Shown here: one piece after another, positions 7,648 through 14,897 of the stretch
Position numbering within the stretch: position 1 is the first letter of the stretch
Layout: the number at the start of each line of letters is the position of its first letter
Assembly: GCF_001044255.1 (NCBI RefSeq)
Contig: NZ_JYNX01000036.1
Span: 86,339 to 125,462 of the forward strand
Direction of reading: 5' to 3'
Source: Mycolicibacterium chubuense
GTDB taxonomy: Bacteria; Actinomycetota; Actinomycetes; Mycobacteriales; Mycobacteriaceae
Length of the DNA: 39,124 nucleotides
Translations under genes and position numbers: made by a program
Notes under the pieces: model-generated
Told to the model about the DNA's origin: nothing
Databases searched by the model: none
The model's input: only the letters and a program-made list of their open reading frames with translations

Positions 7648-8676
7648 GTGAAGGTGCTCGTCACCGGTGGTACGGGCTTCACCGGTTCTCACGCGGCGGC
7701 CGCACTGGCCGCCGCGGGGCACGAGGTCCGGCTCATGGTGCGCGATCCCGCCAAGGTCGGGCAGGTCTTCCCCCTGTACGGTTTCCTTCCCGACGATGTG
7801 GTCGTGGCGGACATGACCGAGCCCGATGCTGTCGAGGCAGCGTTCGACGGCTGCGACGGTGTCGTTCACACCGCCGCGCTGGTCGACCTGCGGCGCCGGT
7901 CCGCCCGTGCCGTCGAGGAGGCCAACACGCGGGGGGTGGAGGTGGTCATCGGCGGCGCAGTGCGGCGCGGGATTCCGAGCATCATCCATGTCTCGTCCCT
8001 GTCGGTGTTCCTCGCTCCCAACGGCCCCATGATGTCGGCGTCGTCGCCCATCGTCGACGGCGCGTCGGCCTACGCCCGGTCGAAGGCCGCCGCAGAACGG
8101 TATGTCCGCGGATTGCAGGACGCCGGCGCACCCGTGGGCGTCTGCTATCCCGCCGGCATCATCGGCCCCGACGATCCGGGCTTGAGTGCGATGACCGCGG
8201 GATTGGTGTCCATCATGACGTCGGTGTTCGTGGTGACCTCGGGTGGAATGCAGATCGTCGATGTGCGGGACCTCGCCGCCCTGCTCGTCACCCTGCTCGA
8301 GTTGCCGCCCGGGCCGCACCGGTATGTGGCGGCGTCGGACATGCTGTCGTGGCCCCGGCTCTACGATCTCTGCTGCACCCTGACCGGGACACGGCCGCGG
8401 CGTATCCGGGTACCGGGCTCCGCGCTGCGGGTCGCGGGCAGCGTGGGCGACATGGTGAAACGCTTGTACGACTTCGACTTTCCGCTCACCCGCGAGAGCA
8501 TGGACGTCACCACGGGATGGCCGGGTGCCGATTCCTCGAGCACCACCCGCGAACTTGGCGTCACGTTTCGCGACCCCGCCGAATCCCTGCGCGACACCCT
8601 GACATGGCTCTTCGTCGCGGGCCACCTCACTGCCGAGCAGGTCGGCACTCTTGCCCAGGAGGCGATGAGTCCATGA
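7648..8676 (+). CDS. NAD(P)-dependent extended SDR (epimerase/dehydratase or 3-beta-HSD-like)
   Basis: A 342-residue extended SDR. The nucleotide-binding motif TGGTGFTG is at residues 6-13, a GVVHTAA segment lies near 71-77, and the catalytic pair is Tyr142 and Lys146 (YARSK). Family members act on nucleotide sugars, flavonoids or 3-beta-hydroxysteroids. The C-terminal region does not allow a choice, though similar mycobacterial proteins are usually called sterol-dehydrogenase-like. GTG 7648 has the leaderless -10 box described separately. The stop overlaps the ATG of the luciferase-like enzyme (ATGA), so the two are probably one operon and may act on the same lipid or xenobiotic. Confidence 0.8.
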   Translation: MKVLVTGGTGFTGSHAAAALAAAGHEVRLMVRDPAKVGQVFPLYGFLPDDVVVADMTEPDAVEAAFDGCDGVVHTAALVDLRRRSARAVEEANTRGVEVVIGGAVRRGIPSIIHVSSLSVFLAPNGPMMSASSPIVDGASAYARSKAAAERYVRGLQDAGAPVGVCYPAGIIGPDDPGLSAMTAGLVSIMTSVFVVTSGGMQIVDVRDLAALLVTLLELPPGPHRYVAASDMLSWPRLYDLCCTLTGTRPRRIRVPGSALRVAGSVGDMVKRLYDFDFPLTRESMDVTTGWPGADSSSTTRELGVTFRDPAESLRDTLTWLFVAGHLTAEQVGTLAQEAMSP

Positions 8677-13854: not shown

Positions 13855-13912
13855 CGACTGTGGGCCTTGTGCACGCTTTTCCGCCCAAACCTGTGCACAG
13901 GACCCACAGTCG
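13855..13912. repeat. hairpin repeat copy A
   Basis: A 50-bp core at 13859-13908 matches copy B (14781-14830) at 48 of 50 positions in the same orientation. Each copy folds on itself: the first 16 bases of the core pair with the last 16 around an 18-base loop. In copy A the stem extends outward by four more pairs (CGAC/GTCG) to 20 bp. The right arm contains the perfect palindrome CCTGTGCACAGG (13890-13901). The element begins four bases after the stop of the nuclease-like gene. It has no T-run, so it is not a standard terminator. Confidence 0.9.
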
Positions 13913-13916
13913 CGGT

Positions 13917-14750
13917 TCAGACAGGGCACCCCGCGGCACGGAGTCGCGACCGGATGCGCTCGACTAGGACGTCGGGGCGACCGAGCATCTCTGCGCTCAC
14001 GCGAATCACCACCCAACCGGCCTCTTCCAGCAGGGCGATCCGGTCGATGTCCCAGGAGCGCTGCCGGCGATCGGTCCAGTGCTGAGCACCGTCGTACTCA
14101 ACGGCGACCTTCCAGTCGGGCCAGCCCATGTCGACCCGGATCCGCAGATCGCGGAACTCGATCTGGGTCTCCGGCCGCGGCAGCCCACCGCGGATCAGGA
14201 TCAGCCGCAGCCGCGTCTCTTGAGGCGACTCGGCGCCGCCGTCGATGAGGGCCAGGACCTTTCGCAGCCTCGCCGAGCCGCGAACGCCCGGGTGGACGTC
14301 TGCGACGGCGAGCACCTCGGCGACGCTGACCCGTGTCGCGTTCATCAGCGCGTCCACCATCGGAATCGCGTGCCGCTCCGGAAGCGTTCGGCCGAGGTCG
14401 AACGCCGTGCGGGCCGGTGTGGTTGTGTCCACGCCACCCCAGATGCACACCTCGTCGGGCGCAACACTCCAGGTGTGGACCGTGATGCCGGGCGGCGCAT
14501 GGCGATCGGCGCGCAGGATCTGCACCGGGGTCGAGGGATCGATCCACTTCGTGCCCAGCGCCGCTGCCGCAGATACGCCACACAACGGCGCACCGGTGGC
14601 GAGCCAGGCGGCGTGCGCCCTGATCTGAGCAGTCATTTCGACGTCGTTCGGGACGTAGACGTCGCGGTACAACGCTTGATGACCACGGGCCAGCGCGCGA
14701 CGACTCAACTGACCGCCGCGCACCGCGACGCTGCCGAGAAAGGGTTCCAT
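13917..14750 (-). CDS. AbiEi-like/DUF559 (Vsr-type nuclease fold) protein, flanked by hairpin repeats
   Basis: About 277 residues. The N-terminal half resembles the winged-helix and AbiEi-type region common in actinobacterial proteins of this kind (GGQLSRRALARGHQALYRDVY near 12-32). The C-terminal ~100 residues have the DUF559/Vsr-like PD-(D/E)xK pattern: Glu178 in SPQET, Asp207 in RVDMGWPDW, then VAVEYDGAQHW with Glu218, Asp220 and His224. The catalytic set therefore looks intact. ATG 14750 is chosen; the open frame continues upstream to GTG 14831, but that part is translation of repeat B. Neither a Shine-Dalgarno nor a -10 box is obvious. The family is multicopy in mycobacteria; its role (antitoxin-like, defence or mobility) is unproven. 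Confidence 0.78.
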   Translation of the reverse strand: MEPFLGSVAVRGGQLSRRALARGHQALYRDVYVPNDVEMTAQIRAHAAWLATGAPLCGVSAAAALGTKWIDPSTPVQILRADRHAPPGITVHTWSVAPDEVCIWGGVDTTTPARTAFDLGRTLPERHAIPMVDALMNATRVSVAEVLAVADVHPGVRGSARLRKVLALIDGGAESPQETRLRLILIRGGLPRPETQIEFRDLRIRVDMGWPDWKVAVEYDGAQHWTDRRQRSWDIDRIALLEEAGWVVIRVSAEMLGRPDVLVERIRSRLRAAGCPV

Positions 14751-14780
14751 GAGGCCACCGTCGCCACCATGACCGACCAA

Positions 14781-14830
14781 TGTGGGCCTCGTGCACGCTT
14801 TTCCGCCCAAACCTGTGCATAGGACCCACA
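14781..14830. repeat. hairpin repeat copy B
   Basis: This is the 50-bp partner of copy A, in direct orientation, differing only at positions 10 (T to C) and 40 (C to T). Both changes fall in the stem and weaken pairing: position 10 becomes C against A, and position 40 becomes T against G. It starts 30 bases upstream of the nuclease-like start codon and ends 14 bases before the groEL2 terminator. With copy A it brackets exactly one gene. Confidence 0.9.
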
Positions 14831-14844
14831 CTGGGGATGGACAA

Positions 14845-14879
14845 CGAAAAGCCCCGGCTCGCCAAGCGAGCCGGGGCTT
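14845..14879 (-). terminator. intrinsic terminator of groEL2
   Basis: AAGCCCCGGCTCG (14849-14861) and its exact complement (14867-14879) form a perfect 13-bp stem with a five-base loop. On the minus strand it is followed by a short T-run (TTTTCG). It lies about 20 bases after the groEL2 stop. Confidence 0.85.
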
Positions 14880-14897
14880 CCCGTAGTAGAGCAGGAC

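Follow-up and report, generated by a model that had tools for sequence, protein, structure and literature searches.

Why should a single nuclease gene sit between two nearly identical palindromes in a mycobacterial chromosome? This question is raised by a 39,124-nucleotide stretch of the Mycolicibacterium chubuense genome (NZ_JYNX01000036.1, positions 86,339 to 125,462; hereafter the window). The source organism is an environmental mycobacterium whose closest named relative at this gene, among the relatives fetched, is Mycolicibacterium chlorophenolicum (92% identity). We consider it reasonably probable (about 0.6) that the palindromes are the cognate targets of the enclosed nuclease and also the ends of a mobile unit. 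The palindrome-bracketed nuclease resembles a small mobile unit of a type not yet described, whose movement is putative. Searches of the open-access literature, judged by titles and abstract openings, revealed no description of this pairing, although novelty is not thereby proven.

The initial annotation had described near-identical 50-bp repeats around exactly one gene, and the segments at 13859-13908 and 14781-14830 are indeed identical at 48 of 50 bases, with two differences. A repeat search lengthens this match to 55 nt at 93% identity. Because the arms of copy A (13855-13874 and 13893-13912; 20 nt each, 90% complementary, with an 18-nt spacer) span 13855-13912, the repeat unit is better defined as a palindrome of 58 bp. 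The two 58-bp copies agree at 52/58 positions, which is unusual compared to the mean of 38.8/58 in 22 close relatives. Between them lies a single minus-strand gene, as had been claimed, and the cassette is flanked by frames that read as groEL2 and a dehydrogenase-like gene, one at either end. The features of the cassette are as follows.

13855..13912, minus strand: downstream palindromic site (copy A), 58 bp, 4 bp 3' of the stop codon
13917..14750, minus strand: AbiEi-Vsr-like (DUF559/MTES_1575) nuclease gene, 277 amino acids, the sole gene between the copies
14241..14750, minus strand: AbiEi-like part, residues 1-170, from the predicted model
13920..14240, minus strand: Vsr/EDxHD homing-endonuclease-like catalytic domain, residues 171-277, from the predicted model, with Glu178, Asp207, and Glu218 invariant
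14777..14834, minus strand: upstream palindromic site (copy B), 58 bp, 27-84 bp 5' of the start codon

If the two palindromes are what the protein of the enclosed gene recognizes on DNA, each 58-bp site would be occupied by two protein molecules, one per inverted half-site (about 20-23 bp), and cleavage would possibly occur near its center. The upstream site would double as an autoregulatory operator, as for AbiEi and Rv2827c. The palindrome-gene-palindrome unit would be gained and lost at intergenic sites in either orientation, with cutting as the presumed driver of movement, and solo palindromes would be gene-less relatives of the unit.

Bracketing by palindromes is a trait of the family. 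We surveyed 91 genes, comprising the 11 matches to the window protein in its own genome (E<=0.001) and the best 80 of 212 relatives from named genomes, taking tblastn match starts as gene starts and picking the upstream and downstream palindromes independently by stem score. With stems of at least 10, an upstream palindrome is present at 53/91 genes, a downstream palindrome at 62/91, and both at 38/91, compared to 21/248 (8.5%) and 36/265 (13.6%) in the respective controls. With stems of at least 12, the counts are 33/91, 48/91, and 16/91, compared to 3/248 and 7/265. A first scan with a narrower downstream search range gave 35/91 upstream and 30/91 downstream. The same architecture is not confined to the genus, being present also in Rhodococcus, Rhodococcoides, and Antrihabitans (L078, L088, L095).

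The palindromes are similar in build but differ in sequence by lineage (TGTGGG, TGTGCAGG, GTGGCCA, GATGACAT, TTCGCACTTGTGC, and others), and the two sites of one gene match each other. Their arms agree at 11.66/14 positions within the same gene and at 8.36/14 between genes; the highest value in 20,000 permutations was 9.50. Arm similarity also grows with protein identity (rho 0.50, with upstream and downstream sites chosen partly in favor of mutually similar pairs). Concerted evolution as a rule was considered and found weak: upstream and downstream sites of the same gene agree at 38.8/58, compared to 38.5 among upstream sites, 37.2 among downstream sites, and 35.5 for upstream and downstream sites of different genes. 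Related genes number 3-12 per genome (E<=1e-40) in the 20 mycobacterial genomes checked. L109 (G082, behind groEL2) and L068 seem to carry a broken gene (best match ending at residue 158; early stop codon).

The upstream site raises the possibility that the palindromes serve autoregulation only, as AbiEi-type operators, with the nuclease acting in defense or otherwise, the solo sites being regulated promoters or decoys, and nothing moving. AbiEi-type proteins do recognize pairs of 23-bp inverted repeats that precede the gene encoding them, and the spacing of copy B from the start codon suits such a role. However, a second site lies behind the gene, and this downstream palindrome overlaps the stop codon in many loci. 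For this reason and others given below, we regard autoregulation alone as unlikely.

Another element stands at the outer edge of copy B, which we take to be DnaA-box-like:

14832..14840, minus strand: DnaA-box-like motif CCATCCCCA, window sequence, present in relaxed form upstream of 67/91 relatives

The strict motif (T[TC][AG]TCCACA) occurs upstream of 37/91 genes, and downstream the strict and relaxed forms occur at 0/91 and 3/91; controls contain them in 1/521 and 3/521 cases, respectively. This motif may tie expression to replication, or it may be another operator.

The protein suggests how such sites could be recognized. Pfam assigns it to DUF559 (24.3 bits, cut-off 20.6); MTES_1575 REase is matched with E=3.8e-7, yet its 30.5 bits fall under the cut-off of 38.2, and the match to AbiEi_1 is weak (E 0.066). 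NCBIfam gave no match above its cut-off, and no AbiEii-type nucleotidyltransferase toxin gene adjoins the cassette, where the neighboring frames read as the dehydrogenase and groEL2. A structure model (pLDDT 92.8) contains a predicted AbiEi-like two-domain DNA-binding fold in the N-terminal part, followed by a domain that matches Vsr (PDB 1cw0) and I-Bth0305I (PDB 3r3p); residues before 133 were barely tested by the reference list of this comparison. Foldseek alone found no match at E<=0.001. The EDxHD/Vsr catalytic fold of the model carries an acidic active site whose conservation agrees with the intact catalytic set proposed earlier: Glu178, Asp207, and Glu218 are unchanged in 52/52 aligned sequences, and Asp220 is kept in at least 90%. 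The model thus predicts a two-part protein in which an AbiEi-like DNA-binding portion is joined to a homing-endonuclease-like domain of Vsr/EDxHD type.

Relatives of both protein parts use long two-part targets of 49-60 bp. According to PMC3943268, the EDxHD homing endonuclease I-Bth0305I dimerizes on nearly 60 bp; the window's 58-bp palindromes fit this target in length only. Likewise, PMC7319586 gives the repeat pairs of Rv2827c as 23+13+23 bp (PDB 6y8q and 1zel for the AbiEi and Rv2827c antitoxins).

The 50-mer, searched with up to three mismatches, occurs in the whole own genome only as the window's two copies, and its 29-nt core has no match in the other 197 Mycobacterium genomes searched. 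The conclusion that the repeat is not dispersed was nevertheless rejected when a pattern with fixed arms and a free middle (TGTGGG-N4-GTGCAC-N18-GTGCAC-N4-CCCACA, up to three mismatches) revealed a dispersed family. This pattern matches in 35/198 genomes, and the reversed control gave 0 matches. The own genome holds six copies, two at the window gene and four elsewhere, and G027 holds 14. Dispersed copies keep the outer arms and GTGCAC boxes, as the pattern requires, but vary in the middle, so that the constant loop described at first holds for the window's two copies and not for the wider family. Among 23 TGTGGG loci checked (L232-L254, one per listed genome), three have the gene and 20 lack it, three of the latter being coding-like.

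Other families behave similarly. GTGGCCA sites match in 10/118 genomes, and of 16 loci fetched, three carry a related nuclease beside the site and 13 carry none. The GGAATAGCATTCC family corresponds to resident gene L009; it is present in 3/98 genomes and has four copies in the own genome, where no family gene lies within 1.5 kb of them. All eight own-genome solo sites (four TGTGGG and four GGAATAGCATTCC) are more than 5 kb away from the 11 listed family genes, and six of the eight were additionally checked by tblastn. Copies per genome and family range from 1 to 14 among matching genomes, as counted with strict patterns that miss diverged copies. Two flanking searches for empty counterparts of solo palindromes yielded no usable synteny.

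A 400-kb sample of the own genome contains 79 hairpins at a score of at least 12, four of which match the flanks of resident genes (families of L005, L009, L013, and L015) with scores of 26-35, compared to a reversed control maximum of 19.5. Three further hairpins scoring 20-22 were set aside as coding sequence by eye. Foreign flanks score just 14-17.5 for three of the four, whereas the L005-type hairpin fits a foreign relative better (36). All four appear intergenic by stop-to-stop frames, and three seem by eye to lie between convergent genes rather than in promoters, which speaks against autoregulation as the sole function. Also in the own genome (L217, about 8025-8191, C58), two L015-like palindromes were seen by eye a few dozen bases apart, recalling BIME/REPIN pairs.

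Sites and enzymes also occur together across genomes. Two or more TGTGGG copies are present in 13/13 genomes with a nuclease at least 65% identical to that of the window, compared to 11/185 others (Fisher p=3e-14), a count that includes the gene's own flanks and scores at most 12 candidates per genome. For 8 of these 13 genomes, places of copies away from the gene are listed: G000 4, G027 at least 11, G077 8, G004 6, G053 6, G176 5, G098 1, and G154 1. Similarly, a nuclease sharing 59% or more identity with L076 is found in 10/10 genomes with GTGGCCA sites and in 1/10 without (p=1e-4), the site-negative genomes having been picked by hand. In both tests, shared ancestry inflates significance, and the identity thresholds were chosen after the data had been seen. 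Sites without a close enzyme do occur, in G140, G167, G093, and G152.

These distributions bear on another explanation, that the palindromes are transcription terminators or RNA-stability hairpins that flank the gene by chance. Several copies are located at gene 3' ends, and PMC1590033 reports that intergenic stem-loops often occur there. However, groEL2 is already followed by a separate element:

14841..14887, no strand assigned: groEL2 terminator-like inverted repeat, from the repeat search, a neighbor of the cassette and outside it

In addition, the sites are found upstream as well as downstream, their sequences are private to nuclease lineages, and solo copies are in part confined to genomes with the cognate nuclease. 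Rfam gave five matches, all far under their gathering scores. Terminators flanking the gene by chance are therefore highly improbable.

Behind groEL2, a relative of the gene is present in 16/70 genomes within the DNA read, and 54/70 lack one (tblastn, 1e-5). Among these 54 loci, 22 have a hairpin with a stem of at least 10 close behind groEL2, compared to 18/162 controls; not all 22 are clean solo sites because L112 and the picked L097 segment look coding and L123, L128, and L155 apparently adjoin another DUF559-like gene. The same threshold missed hairpins visible by eye in L130, L158, and L161. Between matching flanks, the palindrome-gene-palindrome unit of G027 is replaced in G140 by one palindrome belonging to another family, and the gene is reversed in L106 and L141. 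Just behind groEL2, seven loci (L096, L111, L123, L128, L129, L155, and L157) have a different palindrome with a TATAT center, which by eye precedes an apparent other DUF559-type gene in reverse, one that tblastn with the window protein missed.

A second site lies behind a dehydrogenase-like gene, whose anchor pattern is found in 33/60 genomes; 30 loci were read. Cassettes of several lineages recur at the 3' end of this gene in both orientations: 11/30 loci are occupied, eight in one direction (L346, L349, L360, L362, L365, L368, L373, and L374, with L362 partial) and three in the other (L357, L363, and L364), not counting L352, whose relative is more than 1.1 kb away. The opposite directions may reflect separate insertions of different lineages. 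The far-side gene is recognizable in five loci: L349 and L360, with cassettes in one direction; L363 and L364, with cassettes in the opposite one; and L354, where the same flanking genes enclose no unit. At this orthologous site, one species thus lacks the unit while others have it in either orientation. By eye, the insert in L360, L363, L364, and L374 begins near CGCCGA and finishes near TCGGCG, the outer ends of the palindromes. Unit ends that coincide with palindromes, and the occurrence of both orientations, are a further difficulty for autoregulation alone. The absence of any palindrome from L354 argues against simple entry into a pre-existing solo site there. Searches for carriers found no relative in plasmids (E<=1e-20) or phages (1e-10), and seven pattern stretches in viral contigs were not confirmed.

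The initial annotation had likened the cassette to REP/RAYT units with a different nuclease, and had offered a self-recognition site of the nuclease as an alternative. The recurrent pairing with private sequences, the solo copies, and the cassette-free relatives support both ideas, but conservation of stem pairing is seen in part only. In a true REP/RAYT-like system, the nuclease would nick folded single strands during replication and so spread hairpins. Long palindromes, bracketing, solo copies, and the adjacent pair in L217 are all compatible with this. Moreover, downstream copies of 22 close relatives (most behind groEL2) pair at 0.814 compared to 0.729 when shuffled (z 5.8), and the inner stem of GTGGCCA sites is slightly above its shuffles (0.719 versus 0.646; 122/5000 shuffles as high).

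However, upstream copies of the same 22 relatives reveal no covariation (0.668 versus 0.667), and stem conservation as proof of an RNA or single-stranded DNA hairpin is unsupported for them. Among 66 dispersed TGTGGG copies, pairing at the four middle positions is often broken (0.61 formed, compared to 0.51 when shuffled; z 3.5), and loop pairing has no clear excess (z 1.1); this set excludes the coding-like copies of G022, G150, and G153, several second copies at genes, and unlisted copies. The predicted fold is Vsr-like rather than HUH, and, given the AbiEi and EDxHD folds, a palindromic duplex is at least as good a candidate target as a hairpin. Kept half-sites with a free middle look more like a protein target than a stem selected for pairing, although the paired downstream copies temper this reading. 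We consider a single-stranded hairpin system improbable, more so than autoregulation alone.

REP/RAYT units nonetheless remain the closest analogue to the unit bounded by nuclease targets that we favor. In both, two palindromes enclose a nuclease gene on the chromosome, one genome contains several families, and solo copies are found in intergenic DNA. REP/RAYT units (REPtrons), as PMC2817692 and PMC3733652 describe them, have a HUH tyrosine transposase, sites of 20-40 bp, usually more than 100 copies, and a GTAG head. In contrast, the enzyme here has AbiEi and Vsr/EDxHD parts (Pfam found no Transposase_17, the HUH tyrosine transposase, in the window protein), the sites are 58 bp long, strict patterns detect 1-14 copies per family, and no GTAG head is present in the families read.

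Comparisons with other systems are less close. By definition, insertion of a homing endonuclease gene interrupts its own target site, whereas here a complete 58-bp site stands on each side of the gene. Compared to I-Bth0305I, the DNA-binding part is AbiEi-like, the gene is free-standing and chromosomal, and it lies between target copies rather than inside one. Compared to the AbiEi and Rv2827c antitoxins, the protein has no toxin partner encoded beside it and includes a nuclease domain, and sites are also downstream and dispersed. Vsr endonuclease repairs T-G mismatches, and we know of no palindromes of its own.

We tentatively propose, at somewhat less than even odds, that these cassettes make up a new class of selfish elements in the chromosomes of Mycobacteriales. 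An AbiEi-EDxHD endonuclease would cut 58-bp palindromes that serve as both operator and unit ends, and the unit would be joined into the break either way around with a full target on each side, so that sites spread and diversify and several enzyme-palindrome specificities come to reside in one genome. If this is true, REP-like palindromes could be produced by a second enzymatic route, unrelated to the first, and the many proteins with no annotation beyond DUF559 would gain a role. The dozens of matched enzyme-site pairs would then offer a natural series in which to study the recognition of long DNA targets.
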